From assembly GCA_027077805.1 (NCBI GenBank), contig JALWTS010000048.1, forward strand, positions 1 to 64,000: 64,000 bases of DNA, written 5' to 3'. The DNA is from Gammaproteobacteria bacterium. Lineage in GTDB: Bacteria; Pseudomonadota; Gammaproteobacteria; JABHGC01. Positions 2 to 23,346 of this stretch are shown here, piece after piece (position 1 is the stretch's first letter; each line of letters begins with the position of its first letter). The translations under genes and the position numbers were made by a program. Below the pieces are notes generated by a model. That model was given only the letters and a program-made list of their open reading frames with translations. It did not search any database and had not been told where the DNA came from.

Positions 2-1240
2 GGTTGGCATGAGTCTCGAATTCCAACCATTGCGAATATTGTGCCTGAAGCAGGTTTTTCTAAAATTACTGCAAAACTAAAACCTTATCTCAATATTCCG
101 ATTATTACGGCTAATCGTATTAATACCCCAGAATTAGCGGAAACCATTTTAAGCAAAAATTGGGCAGATGCGGTTTCAATGGCACGACCTTTACTCGCTG
201 ATCCCGATTTCGTGTTAAAAGCCAAGCAAAATAAAAGCAAACACATTAATATTTGTATTGCCTGCAATCAATCTTGTTTGGATCAAGTGTTTGTTGGCAA
301 ACAAGCCAGTTGTTTAGTCAATCCCATGGCAGGCTATGAAACTAAGTTAGTTTCGACAGTAACACCGCATCCTAAAAAAATTGCGGTTATTGGCTTAGGT
401 CCTGCTGGTTTAGCTTTTTGCATCACTGCCAGCCAACGAGGTCATCAACTGGTGGCATTTGAAGCAAAAGCTAAAATTGGTGGGCAATTTAATTTAGCAG
501 CAAAAATTCCAGGGAAACAAGTATTCCAACAAAGTCTGGATTACTTCAGACAACAATTACAGCATCCAAATATTCAACTCCATTTAGCAACGACACCTGT
601 CGCAAATGAATTACTATCGCAAAAATTTGATGCCATTGTTATTGCGACGGGTGTTAAACCACTATTACCAAACATTACAGGGATTAACCATGCTAATGTT
701 TTAAGCTATCAACAACTGTTAACCACTCAGCCAAAACTGCAATCTAAAATTGCAATTATGGGGGCTGGAGGGATTGGTTTTGATGTTTTAGCTTATTTAC
801 TTAAGCATCAATGGTTAGAAGCATGGGAATTAGATATCAATTTAAGGGGTGGTTTAAAAGCAAAACCTATAAGCACTACTAATCAAACAATTTATTTATT
901 ACAACGCAAAACGACAAAACTAGGCAAAGATTTAAGCAAAACCACGGGTTGGATTTTACGCCAGCTATTACAGCGTCCTGAGGTTATTGCGAAAACAGGC
1001 ATTAATTATCAAGCCATTAATGATCAAGGTTTGCTTATTCAAGATCAAAATAAAAATGAACAACAGCTATTTCTTGACCATATTATTGTCTGTGCAGGAC
1101 AACAATCCGTGCAACCATTTGCGAATGATTTTTATCAACAACATTCTGCCGTTTATAGCATTGGTGGTGCTAATTCAGTGAAAGGTTTAGATGCTGCAAT
1201 CGCAATTCGTCAAGGTGTGGAATTAGGTTTAAAAATATGA
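2..1240 (+). CDS. fadH: 2,4-dienoyl-CoA reductase (FadH), C-terminal part
   Basis: FadH reduces 2,4-dienoyl-CoA intermediates with NADPH during beta-oxidation of unsaturated fatty acids. The frame is open from base 2, so the start lies upstream; about 412 residues are present of a family length near 670. The first residues (GWHESRIPTIA) are the end of the Old-Yellow-Enzyme barrel. Next comes the [4Fe-4S] ligand set C-x2-C-x3-C-x11-C, seen as CIACNQSC and then a fourth Cys near base 308. The FAD/NAD-binding half follows, with the dinucleotide motifs GLGPAG and GAGGIGFD. The match to E. coli FadH around VSMARP-LAD and CIxCNQxCLD is strong. The GTG at base 41 is an internal codon and not a likely start. 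The gene runs towards the parS-like array and gyrB with no obvious terminator. A related NADH:flavin oxidoreductase of the same family is the alternative. Confidence 0.88.
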   Translation, partial: GWHESRIPTIANIVPEAGFSKITAKLKPYLNIPIITANRINTPELAETILSKNWADAVSMARPLLADPDFVLKAKQNKSKHINICIACNQSCLDQVFVGKQASCLVNPMAGYETKLVSTVTPHPKKIAVIGLGPAGLAFCITASQRGHQLVAFEAKAKIGGQFNLAAKIPGKQVFQQSLDYFRQQLQHPNIQLHLATTPVANELLSQKFDAIVIATGVKPLLPNITGINHANVLSYQQLLTTQPKLQSKIAIMGAGGIGFDVLAYLLKHQWLEAWELDINLRGGLKAKPISTTNQTIYLLQRKTTKLGKDLSKTTGWILRQLLQRPEVIAKTGINYQAINDQGLLIQDQNKNEQQLFLDHIIVCAGQQSVQPFANDFYQQHSAVYSIGGANSVKGLDAAIAIRQGVELGLKI

Positions 1241-1243
1241 GTA

Positions 1244-1859
1244 GTTTCATGTGAAACCATGTTTTTCACCTGATTAGAATGTCAATGTTTCACGTGAAAC
1301 CATGTTTTTCACCTGATTAGAATGTCAATGTTTCACGTGAAACCATGTTTTTCACCTGATTAGAATGTCAATGTTTCACGTGAAACCATGTTTTTCACCT
1401 GATTAGAATGTCAATGTTTCACGTGAAACCATGTTTTTCGCCTGATTAGAATGTCAATGTTTCACGTGAAACCATGTTTTTCACCTGATTAGAATGTCAA
1501 TGTTTCACGTGAAACCATGTTTTTCACCTGATTAGAATGTCAATGTTTCACGTGAAACCATGTTTTTTACCCGATTAGAATGTCAATGTTTCACGTGAAA
1601 CCATGTTTTTCGCCTGATTAGAATGTCAATGTTTCACGTGAAACCATGTTTTTCGCCTGATTAGAATATCAATGTTTCACGTGAAACCATGTTTTTCGCC
1701 TGATTAGAATGTCAATGTTTCACGTGAAACCATGTTTTTCACCTGATTAGAATATCAATGTTTCACGTGAAACCATGTTTTTCACCTGATTAGAATGTCG
1801 ATGTTTCATGTGAAACCATGTTTTTCACCTGATTAGAATGTCGATGTTTCATGTGAAAG
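1244..1859. repeat. Tandem array of 15 parS-like palindromes, 43-bp period
   Basis: The unit is the 14-bp palindrome GTTTCACGTGAAAC plus a 29-bp spacer that starts CATGTTTTTCACCTGATTAG. The central hexamers begin at 1248, 1291, 1334, 1377, 1420, 1463, 1506, 1549, 1592, 1635, 1678, 1721, 1764, 1807 and 1850, so the spacing is exactly 43 bp throughout. The twelve middle sites carry perfect CACGTG. The first and the last two carry CATGTG, so the edges are degenerate. Spacers differ only by point changes: CACCTG or CGCCTG, one TACCCG near 1569, and GTCAAT, ATCAAT or GTCGAT. Each core matches the bacterial chromosomal parS consensus (GTTnCACGTGAAAC). The array fills the whole gap between fadH and the gyrB promoter. 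A centromere-like ParB-loading site is inferred from the match; a different CACGTG-binding regulator is the alternative. Confidence 0.95.
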
Positions 1860-1865
1860 CAATTA

Positions 1866-1894
1866 TCTACAAGCCTTGAAAATAATGATATAAT
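1866..1894 (+). promoter_or_regulatory. Possible gyrB promoter
   Basis: A TATAAT -10 hexamer sits at 1889-1894, 31 bases before the gyrB ATG. The -35 region near 1866-1871 is poor. It begins only about 7 bases after the last parS-like palindrome, so a protein bound to the array could affect RNA polymerase here. A good ribosome site (AAAGGTGG, 1912-1919) follows. Confidence 0.4.
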
Positions 1895-1913: not shown

Positions 1914-4334
<2,421 letters not shown>

Positions 4335-20992: not shown

Positions 20993-21472
20993 ATGCCTAC
21001 TTTTGTATATATGACTCGTTGTGATGGTTGTGGTCATTGTGTTGATATCTGTCCTTCTGACATCATGCATATTGATACCGTCACTCGACGTGCTTATAAC
21101 ATTGAACCTAATATGTGCTGGGAGTGTTACTCTTGTGTTAAGGCTTGTCCACATCATGCCATTGACGTTCGTGGCTATGCCGATTTTGCGCCTCTTGGCC
21201 ATAGTGTTCGGGTTATTCGTGAAGAAGAAAAAGGCACCATTGCTTGGAGAATTAAATTCCGAGATGGTACTGAAAAGAATTTCTTATCACCTATTACGAC
21301 GAAACCTTGGGGACAAGGTATTCCTCAACTAGCTGATCAAGCAGCACCTAGTAAAGAAATGCGTGATAGCCAATTATTATTTAACGAGCCTAAATATATT
21401 CGTCTTGATGATGGCGATATCCATACATTGGAATCTAATGGCTTAAAAATGAAAGCAGGGGTATATTACTAA
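20993..21472 (+). CDS. aprB: Adenylylsulfate reductase beta subunit
   Basis: AprB is the ferredoxin-like subunit that moves electrons between AprA and the membrane. The 159 residues carry two [4Fe-4S] sets: C-x2-C-x2-C-x3-C as CDGCGHCVDIC (about 10-20), and CWECYSCVKAC further on. They are followed by HHAIDVRGYADFAPLG and the C-terminal extension that wraps AprA. AACGGAGAAATA just before the ATG gives a good ribosome site. The stop overlaps the aprA start (TAATG). Confidence 0.96.
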   Translation: MPTFVYMTRCDGCGHCVDICPSDIMHIDTVTRRAYNIEPNMCWECYSCVKACPHHAIDVRGYADFAPLGHSVRVIREEEKGTIAWRIKFRDGTEKNFLSPITTKPWGQGIPQLADQAAPSKEMRDSQLLFNEPKYIRLDDGDIHTLESNGLKMKAGVYY

Positions 21473-23346
21473 TGGGTTACAGTACAATTATTGAAGATAA
21501 TATTGATGTTTTGGTTTGTGGTGCTGGTTTAGGTGGAACAGGTGCAGCATTTGAAGCAAGATATTGGGGGCAAGATAAAAAAATCGTGATTGCTGAAAAA
21601 GCAAATATTGATCGCTCTGGTGCGGTAGCACAAGGTTTGTATGCGATTAACTGTTACATGGGGACTCGTTGGGGTGAAAATAAGCCTGAAGATCATGTAC
21701 GTTATGCACGTATTGACTTAATGGGTATGGTTCGTGAAGATTTGCTATTTGATATGGCACGTCATGTCGATTCAGCCGTACACCAATTTGAAGAATGGGG
21801 TTTACCTTTGATGAGAAACCCAAAAACAGGTGCTTATCAACGTGAAGGTCGTTGGCAGATTATGATTCATGGCGAATCTTATAAGCCTATTGTTGCGGAA
21901 GCGGCGAAAAAATCAGCCGATAAAGTTTATAATCGTGTTTGTATTACTCATTTGTTAATGGATGAGTCTAAAGAAAATCGTATTGGTGGTGCGGTTGGTT
22001 TTAATGTGCGTACGGGTAACTATCATGTATTCAAATCAAAAACTGTGATTGTAGGTGCAGGTGGGGCATCTAATATCTTTAAACCTCGTTCTGTGGGTGA
22101 AGGTGCGGGTCGTGTTTGGTATGCCCCTTGGTCATCTGGTTCGGCTTATGCCTTATTAATCGAGGCAGGTGCGAAAATGACCCAAATGGAAAATCGTATC
22201 GTATTAGCACGTTTTAAAGATGGTTATGGTCCTGTTGGTGCTTATTTCTTACATCTTAAAACTTATACGCAAAACGGTATGGGGGAAGAATATGAATCTA
22301 AATGGTTCCCTAGTTTACAGGAAATGGTTGGTAAAGAATACTTAGACCCTGAAGCATCTCATAGAACGCATCGACCCATTCCTACTTGTTTACGCAACCA
22401 TGCCTTTATCAGTGAAGTCAACGCAGGTCGTGGTCCTATTCATATGGTTACAATGGAAGCATTCCAAGACCCCCATTTGGAAGAAGTTGGTTGGGAAAAC
22501 TTCTTGGGTATGACCGTTGGTCAAGCAGTATTATGGGCAGCAACGGATGTTGATCCTAAACATCAAAATCCTGAGTTAACAACTTCTGAGCCTTATGTCA
22601 TGGGTTCTCATGCAACGGGTTGTGGTGCTTGGTGTTCAGGACCTGAAGATGTTTCTCCTGAAGAATATTTCTGGGGTTATAATCGTATGATGACGGTTGA
22701 AGGTTTATTTGGGGCGGGTGATGCGGTTGGTGGTACGCCTCACGCATTCTCATCAGGTTCGTTTACTGAAGGTCGTCTTGCTGCTAAAGCGGCTTGTAAA
22801 TATATTGATGATGGTAAAGCCGAAGGTATTACCGTTTCTGATAAGCAAATTCAACAACGTAAAGAAGAAATCTATAAGCCTTTAGAAACTTATAGAGTTT
22901 ATCGTAATGAAATTACGGCAGGAAGCGTGAATCCTAATTACATCAACCCAAGACAAGGTTTGGATCGTCTGCAAAAATTAATGGATGAATATTGTGGTGG
23001 GGTAACTGTAAACTATATGACGAATGAAAATCTTTTAAAAATTGGTTTGAAAAAATTAGCCATTTTAGAAGAAGATTTAGAAAATATTGCGGCAGAAAAC
23101 ATTCATGAATTAATGCGTGCATGGGAATTAAAACACCGTCATCGTACATCTGAATGTGTGATGCAACACACTTTATTCCGTAAAGAAACTCGTTGGCCTG
23201 GTTATTATTATCGTGGGGACGCTTTGAAGCTCGATGATGAAAACTGGCATGTATTAACGGTTTCTCGTCGTGATCCTAAAACTGGTGAATATACTTTAGA
23301 AAAAGCACCATGTTATCACTTAGTGAGTGAAGACGAAGAGAAATAA
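21472..23346 (+). CDS. aprA: Adenylylsulfate reductase alpha subunit
   Basis: This FAD catalytic subunit interconverts APS and sulfite plus AMP; in this setting it probably runs in the oxidative direction. The 624 residues are full length. Seen are the FAD Rossmann motif VCGAGLGGTGAAFEARYWG, KANIDRSGAVAQGLYAIN, GREGRWQ-type active-site surroundings (REGRWQIMIHGESY), ATGCGAWCSGPED, and GLFGAGDAVGGTPHAFSSGS at the second FAD contact. It is the third gene of aprMBA and is followed by a strong terminator. Confidence 0.98.
   Translation: MGYSTIIEDNIDVLVCGAGLGGTGAAFEARYWGQDKKIVIAEKANIDRSGAVAQGLYAINCYMGTRWGENKPEDHVRYARIDLMGMVREDLLFDMARHVDSAVHQFEEWGLPLMRNPKTGAYQREGRWQIMIHGESYKPIVAEAAKKSADKVYNRVCITHLLMDESKENRIGGAVGFNVRTGNYHVFKSKTVIVGAGGASNIFKPRSVGEGAGRVWYAPWSSGSAYALLIEAGAKMTQMENRIVLARFKDGYGPVGAYFLHLKTYTQNGMGEEYESKWFPSLQEMVGKEYLDPEASHRTHRPIPTCLRNHAFISEVNAGRGPIHMVTMEAFQDPHLEEVGWENFLGMTVGQAVLWAATDVDPKHQNPELTTSEPYVMGSHATGCGAWCSGPEDVSPEEYFWGYNRMMTVEGLFGAGDAVGGTPHAFSSGSFTEGRLAAKAACKYIDDGKAEGITVSDKQIQQRKEEIYKPLETYRVYRNEITAGSVNPNYINPRQGLDRLQKLMDEYCGGVTVNYMTNENLLKIGLKKLAILEEDLENIAAENIHELMRAWELKHRHRTSECVMQHTLFRKETRWPGYYYRGDALKLDDENWHVLTVSRRDPKTGEYTLEKAPCYHLVSEDEEK

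Follow-up and report, generated by a model that had tools for sequence, protein, structure and literature searches.

Why some genomes carry a single parS site and others many, and how closely these may be packed, is an open question, since one site is enough in tests. The locus described here, a dense row of parS palindromes directly ahead of gyrB in a gammaproteobacterium, bears on that question: what does such an array do, and from what did it grow? We analyzed the 64,000-nucleotide stretch that carries it (contig C48, hereafter the window) together with the whole assembly (2.55 Mb in 50 contigs, 94% complete).

Structure of the Array

A pattern search located 15 copies of the palindrome GTTTCA(C/T)GTGAAAC at exact 43-bp steps (Table 1), the number being an assembly estimate because the longest exact repeat inside the array (146 bp) exceeds the contig overlap (127 bp). 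Tandem Repeats Finder returned nearly the same interval (1244–1858; period 43, 14.3 copies, 97% matches, 0% indels), confirming the count and period of the original prediction. On both strands of the window the pattern matched 33 times, versus 1.4 times expected from shuffled sequence, and the array packs 15 parS sites into 616 bp.

Table 1. Coordinates of the array, its parts and the adjacent features in the window.
Feature	Position	Strand	Basis or remark
FadH/old-yellow-enzyme-type flavin oxidoreductase, 3′ part	2..1240	+	5′ part and dnaN on contig C39
15-site palindromic parS array, 43-bp period	1244..1859	. (direct-repeat unit read on +)	Tandem Repeats Finder, pattern search, unit alignment
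Copy 1, degenerate (CATGTG)	1244..1257	.	4 bp past the stop codon of the upstream oxidoreductase
Copies 2–13, 12 perfect GTTTCACGTGAAAC sites	1287..1773	.	Pattern search
Copies 14 and 15, degenerate	1803..1859	.	Unit alignment
Best sigma-70-like gyrB promoter candidate, TCTACA-17-TATAAT	1866..1894	+	TG precedes second hexamer; directly behind last copy
gyrB, DNA gyrase subunit B	1926..4334	+	NF011501, 1290 bits

Measured against the parS consensus GTTNCACGTGAAAC, 12 copies have no mismatch, two have one and one has two. Copies 1 and 14 read GTTTCATGTGAAAC, with a CATGTG core, and copy 15 reads GTTTCATGTGAAAG, combining this core with an altered last base; the predicted pattern of 12 perfect cores with CATGTG at the first and last two copies therefore stands, except that the final copy carries a second change. 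Unit alignment gives full units for copies 1–14, while copy 15 keeps its site and diverges soon after the palindrome. The 29-bp spacer is also conserved, with few variable positions (unit bases 25, A/G; 38, G/A; and 41, A/G). This homogeneous middle between degenerate edges fits the growth by unequal exchange that had been proposed. The array ends 66 bp ahead of gyrB.

A period of 43 bp corresponds to 4.1 helical turns, i.e., a drift of ~34 degrees from one unit to the next and of 480 degrees across the array. The sites are therefore not all on one face of the helix, and the earlier suggestion of a shared face holds only for neighbours, which are nearly in phase. A weak promoter-like match, GTGAAA-18-TAGAAT, occurs in each unit (14 times, window 1251–1839) and is probably a by-product of the repeat. 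Comparison of the window with Rfam produced no match, and a reading of the array as an RNA element was dropped.

Partition Proteins and Uniqueness of the Locus

The genome encodes one ParB (TIGR00180 search, 197.9 bits), with parA adjoining parB. The protein is full length, possessing an intact ParA-activating N-terminal start (GLGRGLDALLG), a GERRWRA CTP motif and a conserved helix-turn-helix. Among PDB structures its best matches are chromosome-partitioning ParB (6t1f) and Spo0J (1vz0), and it is 47% identical to ParB of the family-mate genome G001. The same genome thus holds a chromosomal-type ParB and a ParA, and the array sites are canonical, putative ParB sites, as the original prediction had it.

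All 14 parS sites within one mismatch in the 2.55-Mb assembly belong to the array, so that no dispersed sites of this quality accompany it. In the 262 kb around the array, no site with zero or one mismatch lies outside it, and the four outside sites with two mismatches are at chance level (3–8 in shuffles). The array is the only recognisable parS locus of the genome.

Origin Region

The end of contig C39 and the start of the window share 127 identical bases, and one ORF spans the joint. The joined order is parB-parA-rsmG-yicC...thiC...mnmE-yidC-rnpA-rpmH-dnaN-oxidoreductase-[15 x parS]-gyrB (yicC and thiC assigned by eye), placing the array ~14 kb from parB, across the contig junction. Cumulative GC skew over the joined 262 kb falls to ~110 kb, stays flat to ~160 kb and then rises, giving a minimum zone of ~110–160 kb; the array, at 150 kb, lies inside this turning zone. 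Both this position and the rnpA-rpmH-dnaN-...-gyrB synteny are those of the origin domain in which a chromosomal ParABS centromere resides, and the array sits in the ancestral origin region. No DnaA box was found within ~11 kb of the array, the nearest TTATNCACA being at 162,268 of the joined stretch.

Two observations concern other genes of these contigs. The rsmG (gidB) gene adjoining parA (contig C39, L007 17008–17686) has an apparent frameshift near an A run, reflecting either decay or a sequence error. Further along the window (20993–23346), aprBA-like genes encode an APS reductase beta subunit and an FAD-binding subunit, which suggests a sulfur oxidiser.

Missing DnaA, Hda and RecF and the SMC Remnant

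The gap between rpmH and dnaN measures ~130 bp and contains no dnaA (contig C39, L008 7092–7360), the gene that occupies this place in G001. Searching the whole assembly with a DnaA model yielded nothing above 22.6 bits, and the protein with that score was rejected as a hidden DnaA, being a DUF499 ATPase. The same search in G001 recovered DnaA at 546 bits and, at 76 bits, an Hda-like protein; Hda was not found with this model in the assembly studied and appears absent. A DnaA call is missing in 32 of 369 sampled Gammaproteobacteria and is thus not a rare condition; the argument therefore rests on the missing Hda and on the uninterrupted locus that lacks dnaA. A relocated dnaA copy may possibly lie inside an assembly gap. 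RecF likewise had no hit over the cut-off in the assembly and one in G001. As of 2020, free-living bacteria without dnaA were reported in cyanobacteria only (PMC7198777), and a dnaA-less gammaproteobacterium of 2.5 Mb would be notable if free-living.

The smc locus, between queF and zipA-ligA (contig C15, L174 3936–4339), retains a C-terminal piece only: an SGGEKALT stretch, a frameshift and then 75 codons 51% identical to the end of G001 SMC, with the Walker-B DE changed to DK. No other SMC exceeded the cut-off when the genome was searched for SMC itself. In G001, SMC is present as pieces of 643.6 and 198.1 bits, with zipA-ligA behind. Because the whole locus lies inside one contig, the loss of smc is real in the assembly and not an assembly gap. 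The LigA encoded alongside (L174 5257–7215) is unusually divergent, scoring 309 bits against a family cut-off of 444.

Ancestry of the Locus

Among the genomes compared, G001 and the genome studied are the only two of the family and of the order. In G001, rpmH-dnaA-dnaN lie on one contig and recF-gyrB on another, and three GTTCCACGTGGAAC sites are found inside recF, in its last codons and just behind it, next to gyrB. Their positions are L163 5683, 6310 and 6361, and the sites within the recF coding sequence encode FHVEH. Across the 369 sampled Gammaproteobacteria, close parS pairs occur in seven: six have exactly one pair and the genome studied has eleven, more than one pair being found in none of the other 368. 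In all six (L145–L150) the pair lies within a dnaN-gyrB gap of 73–273 nt, too small for recF; in these genomes parS persists where recF has gone. The six loci share parS and its chromosomal slot with ours and differ in carrying two copies instead of 15. The array thus occupies the usual dnaN/recF-gyrB parS slot: its place is ancestral, its size unusual. The comparison with relatives that the original prediction proposed gave parS in the same slot in G001 and the six others, without a long array, and a special link to gyrase, which that prediction had entertained, is not upheld.

Copy 15, translated in frame, gives MFHVKAIIYKP* (SMFHVKAIIYKP*), resembling the G001 RecF tail, MFHVEHGKIIKKL* / SMFHVEHGKIIKKL*. 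This likeness is a hint, though no proof, that a parS within the 3′ end of recF, a gene since lost, gave rise to the array.

Proposed Function and Alternative Explanations

In ParABS systems, ParB that has bound parS closes with CTP and then slides away from the site; ParA, stimulated by clustered ParB, moves the origin. We consider it likely that the array serves the chromosome as its centromere, being the one recognisable parS locus of the ParABS system and having expanded in place from the ancestral recF-gyrB parS. As many as 15 neighbouring sites would serve as entry points for ParB-CTP, which would slide or bridge away from them, and ParA would move the resulting dense partition complex, separating sister origins as with F-plasmid sopC and by a route other than SMC loading. 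SMC loading is unlikely to be the array's job, because smc has decayed to a frameshifted remnant; of the known roles, this leaves a partition complex driven by ParA. The locus is thus best read as a sopC-like, ParA-driven centromere that would be unable to load SMC. The centromere-like platform first envisaged is supported by parAB, the unique sites and the origin location; a platform for SMC loading is not. What was observed is the sites and their uniqueness, parAB, the synteny, the skew position, the SMC pseudogene and the undetected DnaA, Hda and RecF; from these we infer ParB binding, spreading and a segregation function at the array, and that many sites would make a larger or more robust complex.

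A high local density of centromere-binding protein can be reached by diffusion or oligomerization from one site, or by an array of adjacent sites (PMC12260392). In P. aeruginosa one oriC-proximal parS suffices (PMC4368675), as does one 43-bp sopC repeat in mini-F, according to the title of Biek and Shi 1994 (cited in PMC9499535); 15 sites are therefore unnecessary for segregation as such. In B. subtilis, SMC collisions become likelier with several parS sites (PMC8357415), a limit that the loss of SMC would lift. Growth of the array may either have compensated for lost SMC and DnaA under selection or have been neutrally tolerated. We hold it rather unlikely, if worth stating, that a chromosome without DnaA, Hda and the SMC condensin enlarged its centromere to a sopC-like array as compensation, segregating in plasmid-like fashion by ParABS alone. 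Somewhat less doubtful, and a possibility we entertain tentatively, is that one or a few functional parS sites were multiplied by unequal exchange and the harmless extras kept, especially after SMC was lost. Near-identical spacers, the homogeneous middle and the degenerate edges agree with such a neutral origin, as do the sufficiency of a single site elsewhere (PMC4368675), the collision argument (PMC8357415) and the state of smc here. However, 12 copies have a perfect palindrome, in contrast to the several variants of the spacer, and long arrays of regular build are found again in unrelated Bacilli and Clostridiales, hinting at use.

The remaining explanations assign the array another role or question its length. 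ParB or another CACGTG-binding protein on the array could control the gyrB promoter and hence supercoiling: the best promoter candidate begins 7 bp past the last copy, P. aeruginosa ParB represses some parS-adjacent genes (PMC7022226), and SopB silences genes near sopC, to judge by the title of Lynch and Wang 1995 (cited in PMC9499535). Yet it is the degenerate copies that lie closest to the promoter, and relatives have parS at the same position in a different build, as a centromere predicts, which leaves such an operator very improbable. We give even less credence to the idea that, with DnaA gone, the repeats serve as an iteron-like, DnaA-independent replication origin. The dnaA gene not found in the assembly, the skew-turning zone and the AT-rich 66-bp stretch behind the array (28.8% GC) would suit it, but the core of the repeat coincides exactly with the ParB site, the skew points to a region spanning tens of kb, and a reading of the nearby ORFs noticed no Rep protein. 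That the copy number is an assembly artefact seems improbable as well; the internal exact repeat is indeed longer than the contig overlap, and three identical copies in a row (2–4) are the main weak point, but unit variants in copies 5 and 8–14 anchor most of the array.

Comparison with Known Systems and Other Arrays

Chromosomal ParABS systems of B. subtilis, C. crescentus and P. aeruginosa resemble the present one in parS consensus, in a ParA-ParB operon near rsmG and in origin location. They differ in spreading single parS sites across kilobases, whereas here 15 lie together and none elsewhere, and in having as their usual client SMC, which is lost here.

The original prediction regarded a dense direct array as an unfamiliar form; this does not hold, given both F-plasmid sopC and long arrays in other genomes. 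When 84,980 species were scanned for closely spaced groups of three parS sites, at least 120 stretches emerged. Among the stretches listed, most have 3–5 sites, many being in Streptomyces, Bradyrhizobium and Clostridia, and the longest arrays, of 12–15 copies, belong to uncultured Bacilli (L053, 15 x 36 bp, behind gyrBA; L054, 13 x about 43 bp; L103, 13 x 36–37 bp) and uncultured Clostridiales (L100, 12 x 41–42 bp, between mnmE and mnmG). Regular arrays of 6–15 copies with periods of 36–43 bp, all in uncultured Bacilli and Clostridiales, are L053, L054, L063, L100, L103 and L110/L127. These arrays are likewise regular and dense, have the same parS and lie near origin genes where this is determinable; they belong to other phyla and have other spacers, and are therefore of independent origin. 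The long parS array is a recurrent and convergent form, for which we found no describing paper on tandem chromosomal arrays in the open-licence literature.

Helical phasing was considered as the cause of the 43-bp period and rejected: spacings at 119 listed clustered-parS loci range over 23–58 bp and are most often 36 bp (3.4 turns), and the phase concentration there is weak (R 0.16, p about 0.05) and falls at about two thirds of a turn, not at a whole one. A plasmid origin of the array was also rejected, as the only match of a distant blastn search among 72,556 plasmids was a 28-bp stretch attributable to chance, and the surrounding genes are chromosomal.

The genome can be viewed as a natural experiment, with many dense sites in one place, the SMC client lost and the usual initiator not found, and it raises the possibility that SMC sets the limit to parS packing. 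Its closest counterpart in layout is sopC, which comprises twelve 43-bp repeats with ten 16-bp inverted repeats (PMC6238139) and for which Tandem Repeats Finder also gives a period of 43 bp. Both consist of tandem sites for a ParB-family protein, with one palindrome per unit and no need for SMC loading. In contrast, sopC is plasmid-borne, has the palindrome TGGGACCACGGTCCCA and lies behind sopB, whereas the array described here is distant from parB, at a chromosome origin, and pairs a chromosomal-type parS with a chromosomal-type ParB. The locus thus shares with an F-plasmid-type partition locus the 43-bp tandem array but not the SopB and sopC sequences beside sopAB on a plasmid: a chromosome has arrived at the centromere layout of the F plasmid.
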